From: Oryzias latipes
Taxonomy: Eukaryota; Chordata; Actinopteri; Beloniformes; Adrianichthyidae
Direction of reading: 5' to 3'
NCBI RefSeq assembly: GCF_002234675.1
Contig: NC_019879.2
Location: forward strand, 12,342,464-12,406,463
Length of the DNA stretch: 64,000 nucleotides
In this document: one piece after another, positions 4,405-56,900 of the stretch
How the letters are laid out: every line of letters begins with the position of its first letter
How positions within the stretch are numbered: the stretch's first letter is position 1
The notes under the pieces: generated by a model
Databases searched by the model: none
The model's input: only the letters and a program-made list of their open reading frames with translations
Told to the model about the DNA's origin: nothing
Program-made: the position numbers and the translations under genes

Positions 4405-5619
4405 TGTCTATGAAGACTCTCATTCATCCAGGTTGGTTCCATTGTAGTAGGTTTAGGGGATGTCATCTGGACTTGGTTTTAAAGTTGGAAGACGTTTCAC
4501 CTCTTATCCAAGAGGCTTTGTCAATTCTGAAATAGCTGGTCTAAGAGTTGGTATATATGCGCTCATGGGGGAGGAGACAGACCTGAAACTGGAGGTGTTG
4601 TCCACTTAGCCTACGTGGTTTCGGGTCGTTAATAGTCCTTTGTCCTCAGCTGGGTGTTGGGGAGTCAGTGACTCCCTCTCCAAATGGTCGTCTCTTTCAG
4701 CGGTTAATGACTCAGGTGGAACTGGTTTGGTTTGTTTAGGTTTCAAAACACTGCCGTAGAAGGATGGAAGAATAAACCTGAGACCACCATTCTTATTAAG
4801 AGAAGGTTTATCCTTCTTGACAAAGATGGCTTCTTTCACTCCTCGCTCAAACCATCCTTTCTCTCTGGCTAGAATTTGGACTTCACTGTCCTCGAAAGAG
4901 TGGTTTGTGGCCTTCAGGTGGAGATGTACTGCAGACTCAGGTCCACTTGGGTTGGCTCTGCGATGTTGGTAAAGCCGCTTGTGTAGCGGTTGTTTGGTTT
5001 CTCCTATATACTGTTCATTGCAGTTCTCTTTGCAGTGGATAGAGTACACAACATTACTCTGTTTGTAGCTGGGAATTTTGTCCTTTGGATGAACCAGTGT
5101 CTGTCTGAGGGTATTGACTGGTTTGAGATGAACTGGGATGTTATGTTGTTTGAAAATCCTTTTAAGTTTTTCAGACAGCCCTGAGATATATGGAATTGAA
5201 ATACTGTTCCGTTTCGTCTCTTGTTCCTTCATGTCTTGTTTTCCTGTATGTTGGGATCTGGTGAATGCCCACTTGGGATATCCACAGGTTCGGAGGGCTT
5301 GGTGGATATGTTGCTCTTCCTTCTTCTTTCCGTCAGAGCTTGTGGGGACCTCCTGGGCTCTGTGTTGTAATGTCCTGATAACGCCTAGTTTGTGCTGTAC
5401 AGGGTGGTTTGAGTCAAATAACAGGTACTGATCTGTGTGAGTAGGCTTTCTGTACACTTCAACCTGGAGCTGTCTGTCCTCTCCAATGATCACAGCACAG
5501 TCTAGAAAGGCTAGGGTGTTGTCCTTTGTGTCATCCCTGGTGAACTTGATGTTCTTGTCTACTGCGTTGATATGATCTGTGAAAGTCTCCACTTCCTGGC
5601 TTTTGATCTTGACCCAAGT
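4405..5619 (-). mobile_element. Penelope-like retroelement, 5'-truncated
   Basis: A long minus-strand frame carries the C-terminal reverse-transcriptase region and a GIY-YIG endonuclease, the combination that defines Penelope-like elements. On the minus strand the 3' flank runs to about 4405 and includes GAGGTGAAACGTCTTCC, a segment I associate with terminal repeats of fish Penelope-like elements. Similarity starts abruptly at 5619, so the 5' side is missing. Confidence 0.85.
4606..5619 (-). pseudogene. Penelope polyprotein: RT C-terminus plus GIY-YIG endonuclease
   Basis: The open frame starts formally at 5700, but its first 27 codons are unrelated flank; element similarity begins at TWVKIKSQEV (5619). 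Counting from 5700, residues 28-150 are the RT C-terminal part (FLDCAVIIGE, EVYRKPTHTDQYLLF). Residues 216-305 are the GIY-YIG nuclease: VVYSI (217-221), the Cys pair HCKENC, YIGET (231-235), Arg242, Glu290 and Asn302 are all visible. In intact relatives the segment before TWVK ends in the catalytic Asp-Asp, so truncation fell just after the active site. The nuclease looks intact; reverse transcription is impossible. Confidence 0.88.
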
Positions 5620-5700
5620 GTAAATCAAATAACACAGCAAATCACACAGCGTTGTGTTAGTACAACAACCATCAAACAGATAACTTAGATGCACCATCAA

Positions 5701-43045: not shown

Positions 43046-43447
43046 TCATCTACGGGACAGCGCATCAGCCTTCACGTTTCGTGACCCTGGTCTATAGGAC
43101 AAACAGAAGGTAAAACGGTTAAAGAAAAGGGCCCAGGGATCCTGGCGAGAGTTCATCCTTTTGGCAGTTCTTAAATACTCCAGGCTCTTGTGATCAGTGA
43201 ACACAACAAAAGGAATTTCAGCCCCTTCCAAGCAATGCCGCCACTCTTCTAGCGCATCCTCGATGGCTAGTAACTCTCTACCTCCGACGTGGTAGTTTCT
43301 TTCAGCGTTGGACAGGTGGCGGGAATGGGAAGCACATGGATGTATCTTGTTATCCAAACTATGTTGGGATAGAACTGCACCGATCCCAACGTCAGAAGCA
43401 TCCACTCCCACAATGAACTGTTTACTGGGGTCAGGTGTGACCAACAC
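43046..43447 (-). pseudogene. Gypsy RNase H domain
   Basis: [18 protein letters not shown] (first catalytic Asp), [16 protein letters not shown] (Glu), [15 protein letters not shown] (Asp) and [16 protein letters not shown] form the standard Ty3/gypsy RNase H order. The frame is open but is offset from the RT frame by a frameshift near 43440. Confidence 0.85.
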
Positions 43448-44150
43448 AGGAGCTGATGTAAAATTGGTTCTTTAGATCTTGGAAGGCAGATTCAGCTTTC
43501 TGGTTCCAAGAAAATTTCTGTTTGGATGATGTCAAGGCATGTAGAGGGGAAGCGATCTTACTGTAATTCTTGATGAAGCAACGATAGAAATCGGCAAATC
43601 CTAGAAAACGTAATTGCTTACGGTTCTCAGGTTTAGGCCACTCCAACACTGCCTGGACTTTCTCAGGATCCATCCTACATCTGCCCTCAGCGATGACCAG
43701 ACCCAAGAAAGAAGATGTAGTGACTTGAAATTCACACTTTTCAGCCTTGACGTATAGCTGGTTCTGGAGCAGACGTAGGAGAACCTTGCGCACATGTTGA
43801 ACATGGTCAGCCTCTGAATGAGAGAATATCAGGATATCGTCCAGATAAACAAACATGAAGCGGTTGATTATGCCCTCTAACACATTGTTAACCAAGTTTT
43901 GAAAAACTGTGGGAACCTTGGTCAAGCCCAATGGCATGACTTGGTATTCAAAATGACCTGAAGGCCTGTTAAAAGCCGTCTTCCACTCATCTCCTTCCCT
44001 GATCCGGACCAGATAGTAGGCGTTGCAAAGATCCAGCTTAGTAAAGATCCTGGCCCCCTGAAGGAGTTCAAAAGCAGAGAACATAAGCGTAAGAGGATAA
44101 CGGTTACGTTTAGATACGTTTAGGTTTAGATACGTTTACGTTTAGACGAT
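43431..44150 (-). pseudogene. Gypsy reverse transcriptase
   Basis: Open from the ATG at 44084, but similarity begins earlier, in a stretch corrupted by reiterated ACGTTTA motifs (44100-44150). [20 protein letters not shown] carries motif A Asp, [13 protein letters not shown] is motif B, and [14 protein letters not shown] is motif C with the Asp-Asp pair. The thumb/connection [20 protein letters not shown] follows. Catalytic residues are intact, but the polyprotein around it is not. Confidence 0.88.
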
Positions 44151-44442
44151 AGATGACCTCGGGGGGGAGAAGTACCTGGGAAGAGGTCAATGGGACAATA
44201 TTACGGACAGTGAGGAGGTAAGGTGGTGGCTTTTACCTTGTTAAACACTTCCTTACGGTCGTGATAGAAGGTGACTATTTTAGAGAGGTCTGGGTACTTT
44301 TCAATTGAGACTATGTTCTGCCCAGGGGTTGATGGAGTTTCTATCGCACCGAGGCAGTTTCTGTGGGAGTCAGTACTCCAGGTCAGGAATTGTTATAAAT
44401 GCCAATCAACCTATTTATTATGACGTTGCAACCAAGGCAGGT
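44151..44442 (-). pseudogene. Gypsy protease/RT-entry region, frame lost
   Basis: Lies where the protease and start of RT should be. No frame with a DTG/DSG protease motif is readable, so the region has decayed. Confidence 0.45.
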
Positions 44443-44652
44443 CTAGGATAACAGGAAGGTCAATATTCTTGAGGAGGAGGAGAACAGAGAAAGGCTCACA
44501 TGTCTCCTCCTTTCGTGCTGAGCCTGGGTTTTTACTGGACAGTTATTGAAATGACTGAGAAAACCACAGTAAAAGCATAGGTTCTGCTGGAGACGCCGAT
44601 CTCTCTCCTCTTTGGAGAGTCGAGTGTGACCTAACTGCTTAGGCTCCTCCAT
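44443..44652 (-). pseudogene. Gag CCHC zinc-knuckle region
   Basis: [20 protein letters not shown] precedes [15 protein letters not shown], the Gag C-terminal knuckle context of sushi-like elements. The knuckle is C-x2-C-x4-H-x3-C, one residue shorter than the standard x4 before the last Cys, so it is probably damaged. Confidence 0.75.
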
Positions 44653-44781
44653 ACTGGAACCTGAAGAGGCATACTGCTCGAGGCAAAAACAGGATTGGTG
44701 TTCATGAGAAAATAAAGGACGTGGTTTTTGTGGTCTCTCTCTTCCTCTCTCCTGAATACGTCTGTCAATGCGAGCTGCTAG

Positions 44782-45420
44782 TCATAACAAGTTTTTGATG
44801 CGACTTGGGAATTCACGCGCTGCTAGTTCATCTTTGATGTTTTCAGATAGACCTTCATAAAACCTCTCGTAGAGAGCCTCATCGTTCCACTTGCTGTTAC
44901 TTGTGATGGTCCGAAAACGTATGATGTAATCATCGACTTTCTCTTTACCTTGACATATCTTGGTTAACTGCCGGGCAGCTTCTCGATGGAGTTTCACTAG
45001 GTCGAAAATGTCTCTGAGCTCCTCTGAAAACCTTCTGTATGAAGAACTGATGATCGAATCACGAACCCATTTTGCTGTCGCCCACTGAGCTTCTCGACCA
45101 GTTAGCAGAAAGATGACATAGGCAAACTTTGATCTTTCTGATGGAAATGATGACTCCTGCAGAGAAAAGATCAATTCACATTGGCAGAGAAAAGTCCGAC
45201 ATGAAGCAGGTTTTCCATCATATTTTTCCGGTGGATTCATTTTGGGTTCGTCGATGGGTTGCACAATGATAGAGGGTGGTATTCCTTGTGAAACGCTCAT
45301 AGACGTGAGTCTTTCGGTTATTTCACGCAGATTGAAAGAGAACTCGGCCATCCGCATATCATAATTCCTGAGCGCTCCCTCTACCTGGGACTGGAAATCC
45401 TGAGCTGTCTTTGGGTCCAT
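44782..45420 (-). pseudogene. Gypsy Gag, N-terminal and capsid-like region
   Basis: The frame is open from 45480, but the start at 45420 (MDPKTAQDFQSQVEGALRNY) is preferred because sushi-like Gags start MDP and the upstream codons are leader. PPEKYDGKPASCRTFLCQC, FPSERSKFAYVIFLLTGREA, REAARQLTKICQGKEKVDDY and YEGLSENIKDELAAREFPS are the retrotransposon-gag signatures. The frame ends early at 44782, before the zinc knuckle. Confidence 0.85.
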
Positions 45421-45499
45421 TTTTGGCCGGAACGTTCTGGTAGAATAAGATCTTGAGGACCAACCAAAAACGACAGACACAGGAATGCAGGATCTTGAT

Positions 45500-49935: not shown

Positions 49936-51181
49936 CTCGGAATTTCTCTTGTGTTTAACTACCACTACATTTATAGCAAAACACAAAATTACTGGGTAAA
50001 TTGCCCTGAGGATGATGGCTTTACTGCACTCTTCCTCCTGCTGCTGTTGCTTTTGGCTTTGCATTATGGGTAAAGATTACCCGAGTTGACTTTGTTCGAT
50101 AAAATCCCAAACTATATTTTCAACATTGCATTTTACCAGTAAGCCACTTTCTCTTTACCTAAAAATGACATAAAAAAGAAAGGCATTAAAAAAAACAGGA
50201 ATAAATACATATTTAAAAAAAAAAAACTGAACAGACTGTAAAAAGCAGTACGGCTTAGTTAGATTTTTCCCATTACTTGTCCAGTAACTTGTGTTTTGCA
50301 ACAGATTTACTGCCCAAAATTAAGTCTTAAGGAAAGACTGTGAGGCATTTAAGGATAAAAAAAGCTGTTAACATAATTGTTGCTTGTTGTTGATTGGCAA
50401 ATGCTAAAAGCTAAATACCACAAACATGTTAAAAACAAATATGTAAACACCGTTTGCATAAAAGAGAAATACCTTTCAGTACATATGTTACAGAAGTTTT
50501 GTTCTTTTATTTTTGCTATAATACACAAAAAATGTAAAAGTAATACCCTACTGATGTAACACAATACAATTTACAAGACTAGTATTGAAAGGCAAGGGAT
50601 TTCTTTTGAACAACATTAATAAGTAATTTGTAATGTAATACAGCAGAGCACTTTTTAAAATGATTTAATTGTAACTGTACAGACGGGAATTTTCTTTGTG
50701 TCACTGTTATAAACTAAGGCGAGAAGTTAGAAGTCAAATGTTTTTGAGGTGGCATCAAAATTAGCCAAAAGTGCTCAAAACAAAACAACACATTTGATTT
50801 GCACATCTCATATGAAAATCAGAGAAACAATCTTCTTTAACGTGTCTTAATGTTTATGGCCCGCAGCGGCAGTCACTGACTGCAAAGACCTATTTGTTTT
50901 TGCCACGAGGGTCAAACAATCAAAACGCTTCAAAACGCCAAAAAAACATGTCAGAAGTCGTCAAAAGCCCAAAACGACATGATAGATGTGTAGCACAGCA
51001 AAAAATACACTCACACACACACATCACCACAAAAGCGTCCACATTGTTATAGCAAAAATGACGAAAAAACACAAAGTTTCAAAAAGCCCTCAAAGGAAAG
51101 GTATAAGCCCAAAAAGACATGAACAGTACATAGTAAAAGAACAGTTGCATTGAAAGACATTGCCATCCCAACCACAAATAG
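49936..51181. other. No recognisable gene
   Basis: AT-rich DNA. Reiterated CAAAA(C/G)GCCC-type motifs at 50920-51110 suggest an old low-complexity repeat. Confidence 0.5.
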
Positions 51182-51397
51182 GATTTTGGTCTGATGATGT
51201 AATCTCTGGTGACACGATTAGCTCTTTTATGATGACATCTTATGATATATCATCATGTGATATAACAGGATGATGTCATTTGATATCATCCTGATATATC
51301 AGCATGATATATCAGGATGATATCATTTGATGTCATTTGATGTCATCATACAAGAGCCGATTGGTGTGACCACAGATTACATCATCAGACCAAAATC
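51182..51397. repeat. 216-bp palindrome (MITE-like) upstream of the pseudokinase-SGNH gene
   Basis: The left arm GATTTTGGTCTGATGATGTA and the right arm TACATCATCAGACCAAAATC are exact inverts over 20 bp and continue, with a few mismatches, for about 57 bp. The centre is made of nested GATATATCA and ATGATATCAT palindromes. TA dinucleotides flank both sides, consistent with a TA-targeting MITE. Confidence 0.8.
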
Positions 51398-51405
51398 TAT
51401 ATATA
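51398..51405 (+). promoter_or_regulatory. TATA-like box
   Basis: TATATATA directly abuts the right end of the palindrome, 150 bp ahead of the ATG at 51556. Position and orientation suit a core promoter, but transcription is not shown by the sequence. Confidence 0.4.
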
Positions 51406-51555
51406 CCGGTAGGAGTCAGGTTAGTGTTTATTCTGGTCTTTCTTAGTAAAGAGTGATCACGTTTGAAATCTTTACGTTTTCAAAAACTCAATTCAAGAAC
51501 CAGAGTATTTTTTACCAAGCAGACTATTTTTACCTTTCATCAAATTTAAACTAAA

Positions 51556-54120
51556 ATGGATTGCATCACAAATGACCAACCGGAAAAATGTTCCCTTTGG
51601 AAACTTCTTCACACAAAAGAAGTTTCTTCTTTTAAACTGAATCAGATCAGATCCATTCTGCGTCGAGTGGCAACTGCTTTTCAGGACCCTCAATACGCTG
51701 ATGGAATTCTGACGCCAGAAAGAATTCAGTTGGTTGTTAAAAGAAACCAGAGACAACAGGTCATTTCAACTAAATTTAGTGGAGTTGAGAATCTTCCTCT
51801 GGATTCATGCCAACATTTCAGGTGGTACATGGCCCCAGAGACACTTCTTGGTTTAGAGACCACTGAAAAATCCCATGTCTGGTCCCTTGCTTGCATTGTT
51901 GCTGAGATGTTCCTTGGCTCTCCTTTCTACACTGCCAATAGTGATTTTGAGATGATCAGGAACATAACAAAAACTCATGGCCGCTTTCCAGACCATCTCT
52001 TAAATGCTGGATCCAAAACCAAAGATTTTTACTTCAAAACCTTGAAAAAGCAGTGGCTTCTGAGGACACCAAAAGAAGATAGAAACAGGATCCTTAAAGA
52101 TGTCAGCTTTGTTTCAGCAGATGACTTCAGAAAACACCAACAGAAGTCGGGAATCTGTTCAGAAACCAAACAGATGAAACTGGAACAATTTATTGGTCTG
52201 TTCAAGAGAATGCAGTTATTGGATCCTGCAAACCGTATTGCTCTTCATCAGGTGCTTCAACATCCATTTGTAGCAGGTAACATGGATCTCCCAAGAAGCT
52301 CTGTAGGAAATGTTACCAGTTTTACTGGCCAGCAAAATCTGTCTTCATCAGAACAGATAAAAGAGAAAGACACACCATGCCATTCTGGTAAAGAAAGAAA
52401 ACTGCCTACGGTCTGGATCATGGGATCAGAATATTACATCAACGGAGCACAAAAAACAGCAAATGAATGCTATGGAGAAAACTTTGGACTCGATTCAAAA
52501 ATAAATTGGATTGGAAAAGTAAACATGCGCTGGAGGGATGTATTCGATCATTTCAAAAGTGAGGTTTCCCAACAAAGGAGTATACCAGACATTTTAATTC
52601 TCCATGTTGGCAGCAACGACTTGGGGAACACAAATGTGTCTGATCTTCTCTGTCAAATGGTGAAGGACTTGAAATGGCTGCATGACAATTTTCCCACAAT
52701 GAAAATTGGGTATTCCTTCATAACTCCAACGTCAACACGGGGAATAGAGAAAATAGATAAGGACAGGATCAGGATCAACAAAACAATTCAATCCAGCGTC
52801 GAATTATTCAATGGCTTTGTGATAGAGCATCCAAGACTGATACCATTTAGCCATCTGTTTAAATCGAATGGAATACATTTCACCATAGAAGGATTTGAAA
52901 TGTTTGTAAGCTCTATCTATGACACGCTTGAGCAAATTCTCAACTCGACCTTTTCAAGAGGCCAACCTCAGTCAACCTCAGTCCCACACATCCTTCCAAA
53001 GGTGCAGGTACCAACACCAGAGAAAGAAACCCCTTCAAAAGAGTTTGTCAATGGAATGTCTGCAACAGTGAGACAGCTGGAAATGGAGACATCCTTGCCA
53101 AAGCACAAAAAGTGTAATCTGAAAAGGAAACACATTTCAGAATCAGACTTAGAAAGCTACTTACCTGCACCAAAGATAATAAGAAAGATTTGTCTGAAAT
53201 TCACAACAGAAAATGCACAGTCACCACCTGAGGATGAACACTGGCCTAACAAGAAAAAGCCTTTACTGAAGAGAAAAAGAAGTTCAGAGGAACCCCCTTC
53301 CCCAGTAAAAAAGATCAAGCTAATCTATGAAAATGTCTCTGAGGATGAACTGGGTTTTGAAAGTCCTTTTGCCAGTTCACCAGAAACTGTGATCCAACCT
53401 GAGGAGATGGAAGAGGACACATGTAGCATTACATCGGACAGCTCACCAACAACCCAAACACATCATTTAATAGGAGCACCTGATGTCTGGATCGTAGGCT
53501 CACAATACATTACCAATGCAAAGCATGCAGCGGTTGATGAGTCCTTTGGAAAAAGCCTTCATTCCAACTCCAATGTTAAGTGGATTGGAAGTAAACACTC
53601 GGCCTGGAAGGATATTGTTAAAGCAGTCCATCAAACAATCTCTAAGGAAAGTGGTCCCCCTGAAGTTTTGGTCATTCATACTGAAGGTGAGGAATTAGGA
53701 ACAATTCCTCCAGCGGTGATTGCAAGTCAGATGGCAGAAGACCTGAGGGTTCTAAAAGAAAAGTATCCTCAAATGAATGTAGCTTTATCCCTCATCATCC
53801 CAAGAAGACATTGGAGATTTGGAAATCCTGCTCATATGAATAAACTCCGGACCTCTGTCAACAAAATGATCAAGGAGTATACTGACCTGTTCGATGTGGT
53901 GGTTGAACATGAAAATTTGGTTCCAGCTGAACAGAACATTTATCTACCCGATGGAGTAAATTTAACCAAAAGAGGGAGTCAGGTATTTTTAAATAACATT
54001 TGGACTGCCATCAAGACATTACTCCCAGAAGAACAACCAGACTTGATCACTTCTTTTCTTGATGATTTTAGTGAGAGCGATTTTCTAAATTGGGTGAACC
54101 AAATGATCACAGGAGATTAA
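51556..54120 (+). CDS. HIPK-like pseudokinase C-lobe fused to two SGNH-hydrolase-like domains (854 aa, intronless)
   Basis: The ATG at 51556 has A at -3 and G at +4, and an in-frame TAA lies three codons upstream, so it is a sound start. Residues 12-240 match the C-lobe of HIPK-family kinases from helix D on: IRSILRRVATAF, YMAPETLLGL (91-100), SHVWSLACIVAEMFLGSPFY, IRNITKTHGRFPDHLLNAGS and LLDPANRIALHQVLQHPFV. The N-lobe is absent. The HRDLKPEN loop reads DGILTPER and DFG reads KFS, so catalysis is not expected. Residues 284-463 form SGNH-like domain 1 (WIMGSEYY; HVGSND at 350-355; NGIH at 438-441) and 643-823 domain 2 (WIVGSQY; HTEGEE; DGVN at 799-802). A Lys/Arg-rich linker (515-600) suggests nuclear import. 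No signal peptide or membrane segment. SGNH-like domains of this type occur in fish transposons, so a mobile or domesticated origin is likely; function unknown. Confidence 0.85.
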   Translation: MDCITNDQPEKCSLWKLLHTKEVSSFKLNQIRSILRRVATAFQDPQYADGILTPERIQLVVKRNQRQQVISTKFSGVENLPLDSCQHFRWYMAPETLLGLETTEKSHVWSLACIVAEMFLGSPFYTANSDFEMIRNITKTHGRFPDHLLNAGSKTKDFYFKTLKKQWLLRTPKEDRNRILKDVSFVSADDFRKHQQKSGICSETKQMKLEQFIGLFKRMQLLDPANRIALHQVLQHPFVAGNMDLPRSSVGNVTSFTGQQNLSSSEQIKEKDTPCHSGKERKLPTVWIMGSEYYINGAQKTANECYGENFGLDSKINWIGKVNMRWRDVFDHFKSEVSQQRSIPDILILHVGSNDLGNTNVSDLLCQMVKDLKWLHDNFPTMKIGYSFITPTSTRGIEKIDKDRIRINKTIQSSVELFNGFVIEHPRLIPFSHLFKSNGIHFTIEGFEMFVSSIYDTLEQILNSTFSRGQPQSTSVPHILPKVQVPTPEKETPSKEFVNGMSATVRQLEMETSLPKHKKCNLKRKHISESDLESYLPAPKIIRKICLKFTTENAQSPPEDEHWPNKKKPLLKRKRSSEEPPSPVKKIKLIYENVSEDELGFESPFASSPETVIQPEEMEEDTCSITSDSSPTTQTHHLIGAPDVWIVGSQYITNAKHAAVDESFGKSLHSNSNVKWIGSKHSAWKDIVKAVHQTISKESGPPEVLVIHTEGEELGTIPPAVIASQMAEDLRVLKEKYPQMNVALSLIIPRRHWRFGNPAHMNKLRTSVNKMIKEYTDLFDVVVEHENLVPAEQNIYLPDGVNLTKRGSQVFLNNIWTAIKTLLPEEQPDLITSFLDDFSESDFLNWVNQMITGD

Positions 54121-54195
54121 ATGATGAGCTTATGTAATCAGAATTTTTTTTCGTGTGGGTTATTATTTCTTTATCGTAAGGACATGTTTGTTTGG

Positions 54196-54201
54196 ATTAA
54201 A
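54196..54201 (+). promoter_or_regulatory. Possible polyadenylation signal ATTAAA
   Basis: ATTAAA lies 75 bp after the stop of the 854-codon gene. It is the commonest variant of AATAAA; no better signal was seen before the minisatellite. Confidence 0.35.
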
Positions 54202-54384
54202 AAAGACCTATACTTTAGGTTCACAATGTTTAGCTTTTCTTGTAGCACTTTAGTTTAATGGGGATTCTGGAAGTGACTTCAGTCTTTTTGTATATAAAAA
54301 AAAAGAAATAGTGAGTTTAAGTTTATAGGTTCATGACTTTTTTTTAATTCTATTCTGTGAAATTTTTTTCTTGTGTGAAAATGA

Positions 54385-55640
54385 AAATTGGGAGTTGTCC
54401 CCCACACACATACTTTGTAAATTCTTAAATTTTTATTTATGTTATTGTTTTGTGTAAATATTTTTTTCTGGAAAAAGACAAGGTTGTATTTTTTCTTGGG
54501 GGGGGGGGGGGGTCTTCATGAACTCTGCCCTCCCCCTAGACACACACTTTGTACATTTGTAAATCCTTTTTTTCTGTAAAACCTTCACTTTGTAAAAAAA
54601 AACACACACACACACACAAAAAATACTTTAGGGGGTTTCTCCAGGGACTCTAGTTCCCCCCCATGCTTTGTAAATTCTTAGGTTTTCTTTTATTCTTTTC
54701 TGTAAAACCTTTACTTTGAAAAAAAAAAAAAACTTTAGGGGTTTTCTCCAGGTACTCTGGTTACCCCCCCATGCTTTGTAAATTCTTAGATTTTCTTTGA
54801 TTCTTTTCTGTAAAACCTTTACTTCGAAAAAAAAAATACTTTGGGGGGTTTTCTCTAGGTACTCTGGTTACCCCCCCATGCTTTGTAAATTCTTAGGTTT
54901 TATTTTATTCTTTTCTGTAAAACCTTTTACTTTGAAAAAAAAAAACTTTGGGGGGTTTTCTCCAGGTACTCTGGTTACCCCCCATGCTTTGTAAATTCTT
55001 AGGTTTTCTTTTATTCTTTTCTGTAAAACCTTTACTTTGAAAAAAAAAAAACTTTGGGGGGTTTTCTCCAGGTACTCTGGTTACCCCCCATGCTTTGTAA
55101 ATTCTTAGGTTTTCTTTTATTCTTTTCTGTAAAACCTTTACTTTGAAAAAAAAAAACTTTGGGGGGTTTTCTCCAGGTACTCTGGTTACCTCCCCATGCT
55201 TTGTAAATTCTTAGATTTTCTTTTATTCTTTTCTGTAAAACCTTAACTTTGAAAAAAAAAAACTTTGGGGGGTTTTCTCTAGGTACTCTGGTTACCCCCC
55301 ATGCTTTGTAAATTCTTAGGTTTTCTTTTATTCTTTTCTGTAAAACCTTTACTTTGAAAACAAAACAACTTTGGGGGGTTTTCTCCAGGTACTCTGGTTA
55401 CCCCCCCATGCTTTGTAAATTCTTAGATTTTCTTTGATTCTTTTCTGTAAAACCTTTACTTCGAAAAAAAAAACTTTGGGGGGTTTTCTCCAGGTACTCT
55501 GGTTAACCCCCCCCCCCATGCTTTGTAAATTCTTAGGTTTTCTTTTATTCTTTTCTGTAAAACCTTTACTTTGAAAAAATAAAATAAAAAAACTTTAGGG
55601 GGTTTTCACCAGGGACTCTGGTTCCCCCCCACACTCAATT
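54385..55640. repeat. Minisatellite of about 105-110-bp units, roughly 9 good and 2-3 degenerate copies
   Basis: Core ATGCTTTGTAAATTCTTAG recurs near 54662, 54771, 54878, 54984, 55089, 55194, 55299, 55409 and 55519. Each unit has GGGGGGTTTTCTCCAGGTAC, a C-run, TTCTTTTCTGTAAAACCTTT and an A-run. Degenerate versions occur at 54395-54640 and 55620, so the array grew from the 3' flank of the neighbouring gene. Frames inside it, such as 54797-54994, are repeat artefacts. Confidence 0.92.
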
Positions 55641-56718
55641 CTTAGGCTGTCTTTTGTGTTCCTTTGGAAATATCCTCTTTCCTTGTAAATGTTCATTTTT
55701 TTGTAAAATCTTTGGTTTCTTTTACTGTATTTTCAGTTTCAGTTTCCTTATTTCAAACACAAATGAAAAAGTAAACACAGTAGTTTAAAAAAAGACAGAA
55801 AATAATACAGTGGGCTTGAAAAGGAGTGGGTTGAAGAGAAATCTTGTCTGATCCCACCACTTGTTTTACAACACCTGATGATGCATCTATTTCTATTTAC
55901 AGATATTTACAGAACATTCACATTACATTCTGCATGCCATCTTTTTCTTTTATTAATCATATCTTACTCCATAAAGTTCTATTAGGGAATTATTCTAGGT
56001 TTTTTTGAATACATGTACATTTTTGCTTTGTTTTAAACCTTCATCCAATCTGTTCCATAAATCCACACCACAATTTTATAAAAACATTTTGTTTTTTAGT
56101 ACAAATTCACTGCTTTTTGAAATTCAGTTGGTTTCTTAGATCGTAACTCCCGTCTCTGACTCTGAACATTTGCTATATGTTTATTGGAAGTAAGTTGCTT
56201 CTGGCTTTATACACAATAAGTGCTGTTTACAGTTTCACTAGTTCCCATAATTTCAATAAACCCAACTTTAAAAACAATACATTTGTATGTGTCCCATAAT
56301 CCACTCCATGAACTATTTGAATGGATTTTTTTGTAAGATGTACAAACACTCTAGATTTGTTTTATAAGTATTTTAACAAGCATGTGATACAAAAACAGGT
56401 AATGTGTGATAGTTTTTAAAGTTAATAGACTAACAATTATTCCAAATGTATTCGATCATTTAAAGTCGCATACCGGTTGGACTGCAGGTTTTGCTTTGCC
56501 TTCCATGTTCAGTCAAAAAAACAAAGGCACTGGTAGATGGTACTCTGGCTTCAGCTAGACGGGGTTCAACTCCCTGCAGTGTCCTTGAAAATTGTTTGAC
56601 TTTGACATGAAACATCAAAGTAAATAATATTCCAAAAAAGATTATTCTAAAGTTTTAAAGATTATTCTAAAGTTTTAAAGATTATTCTATGTTGATAAAG
56701 AATAGTTTAGGATTTAAT
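55641..56718. other. No recognisable gene
   Basis: AT-rich DNA. A short triplicate of AAAGATTATTCTA(AAGTTTT) occurs at about 56636-56692. Confidence 0.55.
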
Positions 56719-56720
56719 TA

Positions 56721-56900
56721 ACCCTTGTGCTATCCTAGGCACTTTAACATTGAGAGTTGAGTCATCTAGACCCACTAGACAGTGCTCTGAACCTTTTTTT
56801 CAATGATTTGTGATCTTCACTTCAAGGATTACATGAAATCTTTCCACCTTTATCCACCTTTGTCATGGTAGGGAGAACACATCAATGTAAGGGTGGGGTT
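56721..56900. mobile_element. TA-flanked MITE (ACCCTTGTGCTATC family), right end missing
   Basis: ACCCTTGTGCTATCCTAGGC follows TA at 56719-56720 and is colinear with 7667-7874. It stops at GGGTGGGGTT, about 25 bp short of the right terminus. Confidence 0.8.

Follow-up and report, generated by a model that had tools for sequence, protein, structure and literature searches.

The window, a 64,000-nucleotide stretch of medaka (Oryzias latipes) DNA at C21:12342464-12406463 of the assembly searched (734 Mb, 25 contigs), contains an intact intronless open reading frame at 51556..54120 on the + strand, with its genomic copy at G000:C21:12394019-12396580. The frame opens with ATG and runs for 854 codons with zero internal stops and zero introns, and the single intact reading frame described in the first-pass annotation was thus confirmed. 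An in-frame stop (TAA at 51547) lies 9 nt 5′ of the ATG, which has a good start context, AACTAAAATGG. For comparison, across 40 base-shuffled versions of the window the longest ATG-initiated frame reached 183 aa, with a mean of 123. A TATA-like sequence, TATATATA (51398..51405, + strand), is found about 150 nt 5′ of the ATG and an ATTAAA polyadenylation-like signal lies at 54196..54201 (+ strand); both are consensus matches only. Immediately 5′ of the TATA-like sequence there is a fold-back element (51182-51397) with 34-nt inverted ends (94%), and at the corresponding site another copy of the gene, L003, carries about 2 kb of other DNA.

The encoded protein begins with a HIPK-like kinase C-lobe (residues 13-248; 51592..52299, + strand). 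Its match to Pfam PF00069 (E 8.4e-12) enters the profile at position 155 of 263, so the 854-aa protein does not contain a complete bilobal kinase domain. The best PDB matches over residues 13-248 are HIPK2 and HIPK3 chains (E 4.6e-26 to 1.4e-24), 12-14 orders of magnitude ahead of the best DYRK1A chain (E 2.2e-12). A tblastn search of the window, using a single full-length HIPK-like protein (P0009) as query, found no N-lobe and no upstream exon, and a missing exon carrying the N-lobe was set aside on the result of this single query. These data bear out the original description of a HIPK-type C-lobe that starts at helix D and lacks its N-lobe, and by sequence the kinase part is a HIPK-derived pseudokinase fragment whose nearest solved structures are HIPK kinases. 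Active-site residues were read by alignment to a medaka HIPK-like kinase (L040) in 15 medaka kinase domains of the family. No Asp is present at the HRD position in any of the 15, the catalytic-loop Lys is replaced by Thr and the Asn by Arg or Lys in 15/15, and the DFG Asp has become Lys, Gln or His, again in 15/15. All 15 domains therefore fail the residue pattern of an active kinase; the APE Glu and a late Arg are retained in the same alignment.

Two SGNH pseudo-hydrolase-like domains follow, SGNH1 (residues 284-465; 52405..52950, + strand) and SGNH2 (residues 641-825; 53476..54030, + strand), which are 27% identical to each other. The Pfam GDSL match for SGNH1 is weak and under the curated cut-off (18.2 bits vs 32.9), and SGNH2 searched alone against Pfam gave zero matches. 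A profile built from the family reaches solved SGNH esterases, namely an acetyl esterase (E 0.0006) and the ZfL2-1 ORF1 esterase 4c1b (E 0.003). Moreover, a medaka SGNH protein on C15 (L037 2595-3194), a single frame of about 200 aa with one domain that keeps S, G, N, D and H, matches SGNH1 and SGNH2 with single-comparison E values of 2e-21 and 1e-23. By the profile and by the C15 protein, both domains are sequence homologues of the SGNH superfamily, as had been proposed at the outset.

With the C15 protein as alignment reference, none of 35 family domains (18 SGNH1 and 17 SGNH2) keeps Ser, Gly, Asn and His together, and so none has the four-block residues of an active SGNH hydrolase. In SGNH1, Glu or Gly occupies the Ser position in 18/18, and Asn and His are kept in 14/18 and 11/18, respectively; in the window gene G, N and H are retained, with Glu aligned at the Ser position. 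In SGNH2, Asn and His are gone in 17/17 and Ser is retained in 7, the window gene having Gln for Ser, Glu for Asn and Asn for His. A Ser directly precedes the aligned nucleophile position in every family SGNH domain, and the reading of SGNH1 as inactive therefore depends on the alignment register.

The linker between the SGNH domains (residues 466-640; 52951..53475, + strand) was modelled with low confidence and is probably disordered. It contains basic clusters (KRKH, KKKP, KRKRSS and KKIKL) that resemble nuclear-import signals as motif matches only, and the relatives P0004 and P0005 of O. melastigma contain PKKRKV. The C-terminal tail (residues 826-854; 54031..54117, + strand) is helical in the model with pLDDT below 50. 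The AlphaFold2 model from 16 sequences has three folded regions with low-confidence linkers between them, and in both SGNH regions strands and helices follow the alternating beta/alpha order. Ten-residue pLDDT means span 41-92 over the kinase part, with the minimum near residues 61-80, 53-88 over SGNH1 and 51-85 over SGNH2, and stay <50 over residues 467-640. Three regions are thus predicted to fold, at modest confidence (mean pLDDT 61.5, pTM 0.36).

The gene had initially been taken as a lone locus, and genome search corrected this to a multicopy family, which was invisible from the window alone. A six-frame search of the medaka genome returned at least 66 matches, including other HIPK-like kinases and the C15 SGNH protein. 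Among 30 loci fetched, some of which overlap each other, at least 14 are separate open copies with the kinase, SGNH1, linker and SGNH2 in full (L001-L004, L006-L012 and L015-L017; 758-855 aa). Three further open frames of 531 aa (L022, L023 and L025) have both SGNH domains without the kinase, the frame of L013 stops at 574 aa, L014 and L019 are shorter open pieces of 373 and 345 aa, and further copies have decayed and contain stops. Open copies with both SGNH domains are located on C9, C10, C18, C19, C20 and C21, and pieces of the family on C2, C4, C5, C7, C13, C16, C22 and C23. In L014 (1408-2529) a start resembling that of the kinase part is fused with linker and SGNH2, an arrangement that an in-frame internal deletion could have left. 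The second C21 copy, L002, encodes exactly the O. latipes protein P0001 (UniProt A0A3B3H4X1), by which P0001 was ruled out as an allele of the window gene, and L006 encodes exactly P0002 (A0A3B3HPS6).

At least five related proteins are present in O. melastigma (P0004-P0008), and the gene models of P0007 and P0008 are without SGNH1 and most or all of SGNH2. In an SGNH tree of 13 rows, built without P0007-P0009 and the SGNH2 stretch of P0005, SGNH1 and SGNH2 split with full support and O. melastigma members fall in each; in the kinase tree, P0007 clusters with the C10 line (98/95). By these trees, the tandem duplication of the SGNH domain, and with it no fewer than two lines of paralogues, predate the split of O. 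latipes and O. melastigma. Outside Oryzias, protein searches that required shared exact words found no relative with the same architecture, and wider presence is possible; a similarly word-limited profile search for SGNH relatives elsewhere gave one O. latipes protein.

Selection on the family was estimated with a codon model on the 14 long copies, with L013, the copies without a kinase, the shorter pieces and all matches not fetched excluded. The family omega was 0.665 (kappa 1.77), and the likelihood was 18 log units worse when omega was fixed at 1 (lnL -9895.1 vs -9877.0), with kappa tried at 1.2, 1.8 and 2.5 only in the fixed fit. By part, omega over the 14 copies was 0.53 for the kinase, 0.67 for SGNH1, 0.72 for the linker and 0.70 for SGNH2. 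The clades differ in this respect. In the four copies of the window clade omega was 0.53 (SGNH2 0.28, SGNH1 0.77), in the seven copies of the C18/C19 clade 0.61 (SGNH2 0.79, SGNH1 0.40), and in the three copies of the C10 clade 0.92, which is indistinguishable from 1; strong constraint on SGNH2 (0.28) is limited to the window clade. Purifying selection therefore acts on the family as a whole. The suggestion of "selection or recent origin" made for this gene stands in its first part, by omega, and fails in its second if very recent origin is meant, because the architecture was already present before O. latipes and O. melastigma diverged.

In neutral simulations without stops, run at kappa 2 and thus near the fitted value, every pair except the two closest had a mean NG86 omega of about 0.83-0.88. 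The observed omega of 0.43-0.54 for L001-L003, L001-L004 and L003-L004 was reached in 2, 4 and 1 of 200 neutral runs, and that of the deep pairs L001-L006, L001-L009 and L006-L009 in 1, 0 and 0 of 60. For L001-L002 and L009-L016 the values were reached in 14/200 and 15/200 runs, and L009-L012 (42/200), L006-L007 (73/200) and L009-L022 (143/200) were not unusual. At kappa 4, above the fitted 1.77, the first three of these pairs were reached in 10, 21 and 0 of 200 runs and the deep pairs in 19, 2 and 3 of 60. Flanking DNA gives a further comparison. Mismatches over the 2562 coding positions numbered 23 for L001-L002, 103 for L001-L003, 121 for L001-L004 and 99 for L003-L004, and in the near flanks 24/521, 42/495, 53/512 and 55/506, respectively, so that near flanks diverge more than the coding sequence in all four pairs compared. 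The synonymous distance of L001-L002 (0.016) is itself under their flank distance, and gene conversion between copies is possible, which would complicate omega. The amino-acid replacements that separate the window gene from its relatives are barely more conservative than neutral ones. A fair reading of these data is that the family is constrained as a whole, weakly, and evolves fast.

Two O. latipes proteins, P0002 and P0003, differ at 26/180 positions in SGNH1 and 5/183 in SGNH2 (p 5e-5), and of the three C10 copies compared with P0003 the closest differs from it by 41 residues, its exact counterpart not being among them. Diversifying selection on SGNH1 was considered and dropped, as the window protein and P0001 show no such excess (4/182 vs 2/214).

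The same measurements bear on the idea that these are functionless, neutrally drifting pseudogenes in decay. Many copies do carry stops, catalytic residues are lost, and the C10 clade taken by itself, with its omega of 0.92, remains compatible with drift. As an account of the whole family, however, this is quite improbable and was rejected: neutral simulation to 60-66% identity left 17-20 stops on average and never zero (100 runs each), in contrast to the 14 open copies, and both omega and the difference between coding sequence and flanks argue against it.

The DNA around the gene was examined for a carrier. Comparison of four copies, with about 6.5 kb of flank each, delimits a block common to the window and three other copies on C21 and C9, which in the window spans approximately 50044..56712 (no strand assigned), with gaps and insertions. 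Just 3′ of the gene, a tandem array of 106-bp units (54618-55631, 9.4 copies) is found, and repeats matching it adjoin the three other copies compared. A dispersed repeat at 56711-56900 has more copies at about 7665, 34106, 58037, 59180 and 60100 and is absent at the equivalent point of L004. Seven other frames of at least 150 aa occur in the window: one with a GIY-YIG match, two with reverse transcriptase, one with gag and three Pfam-negative. The GIY-YIG frame (4606-5700, - strand) is, we assume, reminiscent of Penelope-like elements, and the reverse transcriptase and gag matches at 43431-45480 (- strand) are presumably pieces of a Gypsy-type retrotransposon. A viral origin was also considered and, for the SGNH part, set aside: of the 69 pattern stretches that the SGNH profile picked out in viral contigs, none was confirmed.

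Spread as cargo of mobile DNA, whether carried by a transposable element or multiplied through repeat-driven duplication, with frames still open mainly since they are young or useful to the element, would explain why copies lie on many chromosomes, partly clustered, among many fragments with stops. Such a role has been proposed for the SGNH genes of Helitrons and for the ORF1 esterases of retrotransposons. In its favour, the left limit of the common flank is identical in two copies, with the break of the window copy 72 bp inside, and SGNH domains are known as cargo of Helitrons (texim, PMC4021074), of CR1-type elements (PMC3905857) and of Ngaro elements (PMC9210276). However, the right limits differ among the four copies compared, without a common right end in about 6.5 kb of flank, and besides the gene no frame of at least 150 aa lies in 45.5-64 kb of the window. 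Further, the 10 frames scanned with Pfam among the 30 other frames of at least 75 aa in 46-64 kb contain no element domain, the one weak match there being to Y_phosphatase2 below the cut-off (E 0.026), and omega is below 1 across the whole family. We consider this explanation doubtful, yet it deserves to be kept in view.

Likely parent kinds of both parts are still present in the medaka genome. L038 and L040 each encode a HIPK-like kinase in one frame, with the kinase domain and its catalytic motifs complete, and L040 is 32% identical to the family C-lobe over 155 aa. At another locus, L039 (1689-3500; G000:C9, minus strand), an open stretch of >600 aa contains a full HIPK-like kinase domain in tandem with an incomplete second one; in the genome search the open frame listed for this locus is 1276 aa long. 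HIPK-like expansions have been reported in flatfishes, with 14 genes (PMC8618825), and of four fishes compared elsewhere only O. melastigma is reported to have a particular Hipk1 family (PMC7493909). As for the SGNH part, the C15 protein used as a genome query gave 49 matches, itself and 48 in the kinase and SGNH family, and it is the only non-family genome match found to the family SGNH domains. We suggest that an intronless HIPK-like kinase gene, of a kind still found in medaka, may have lost its ATP-binding lobe, and that the truncated kinase would then have been joined to an SGNH domain that was duplicated in tandem. Since the parent kinase would already have been intronless, the intronless fusion would need no new retroposition. 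A mobile source of the SGNH part is plausible, because SGNH domains are documented in retrotransposons and Helitron-linked genes.

Taken together, we tentatively read these genes as a multicopy Oryzias family of three non-catalytic enzyme folds, of intronless HIPK origin, whose protein would act as a nuclear kinase scaffold or decoy with SGNH folds for ligand or partner binding, a joint reading whose chances we put somewhat short of even. With catalytic residues lost and weak selection still keeping the family open as a whole, the protein probably acts by binding and not by catalysis. HIPK kinases have a nuclear role. Because catalytic residues were lost under constraint, the linker has basic clusters and HIPKs act in the nucleus, a nuclear, non-catalytic binding or decoy protein appears most likely from the sequence. 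In such a protein, the basic linker would carry the molecule into the nucleus, the kinase C-lobe would retain the HIPK surface that holds partners or substrates and serve as scaffold or decoy without phosphorylation, and the two SGNH folds would bind a ligand or partner without cleavage, in principle like the non-catalytic SGNH domain of Oskar, a protein that shows the fold to be of use without hydrolysis. The SGNH pair may even have a role of its own, because the kinase is lost in three open copies. In addition, many fast-evolving copies could point to a partner that keeps changing, as might be the case in conflicts involving, for instance, the germline, the genome or pathogens. The stronger version seems to us rather unlikely. 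In it, these intronless, fast-evolving and multicopy genes would be a new family of vertebrate conflict genes, in which a host kinase C-lobe and an SGNH domain, duplicated and inactivated, became a nuclear decoy or restriction factor directed at transposons or pathogens in the germline, and copies would have been reshuffled as some lost the kinase or SGNH1.

What is described here is a new gene in a standard laboratory vertebrate, in which enzyme folds were joined, catalysis was lost and selection kept the product in many copies. Gain of function by pseudo-enzymes thereby becomes testable, with at least 14 natural variants to compare and with likely parent kinds, a HIPK-like kinase and an SGNH protein with catalytic residues intact, in the same genome. 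Medaka offers inbred strains and routine gene editing.

No paper was found in the open-access literature that combines HIPK with SGNH, or the full kinase name with GDSL; the parts are of known kinds, and their combination and inactive state are new against the literature searched. Compared with HIPK2/3 and the intronless fish HIPK-like kinases, the C-lobe sequence is alike from helix D up to where the kinase domain ends, and the family differs from HIPK kinases in having no N-lobe, in the loss of the catalytic Asp, Lys and Asn and the DFG Asp (15/15), and in being joined to SGNH domains.

For the SGNH half, the nearest comparison in fishes is texim, the Helitron-linked SGNH genes of PMC4021074, which are likewise multicopy in teleosts. 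It could be asked whether the window gene encodes a working SGNH esterase of this group, given the SGNH relationship by profile and model, the copy number in fish, and the placement of medaka texim copies in that report on chromosomes 10 and 21, which share their numbers with two of the contigs bearing our family. The same text gives 15 exons for platyfish teximYa and teximYb, in contrast to the intronless gene here, describes the four catalytic residues as kept, whereas none of 35 domains here keeps all, and mentions no kinase part. By its account the two texim copies of medaka resemble each other very closely, but in our family identity between copies on C21 and C10 is 65-68%. We regard membership in texim as highly improbable and set it aside, the separation being drawn from the description of texim and not from its sequence.

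The SGNH fold is also common to our family, ZfL2-1 ORF1p (PDB 4c1b, PMC3905857) and Ngaro-like elements (PMC9210276). As those sources present them, these are element proteins; in contrast, no attached element genes were found for the window gene, and the catalytic residues of the family are lost. The C15 SGNH protein is 28-29% identical to both family SGNH domains, and differs from them in its single domain and its intact S, G, N, D and H. Oskar is given as a non-catalytic SGNH protein in PMC3905857. Its OSK domain likewise retained the SGNH fold after hydrolysis was lost, with another domain partner and in another lineage than the Oryzias family.
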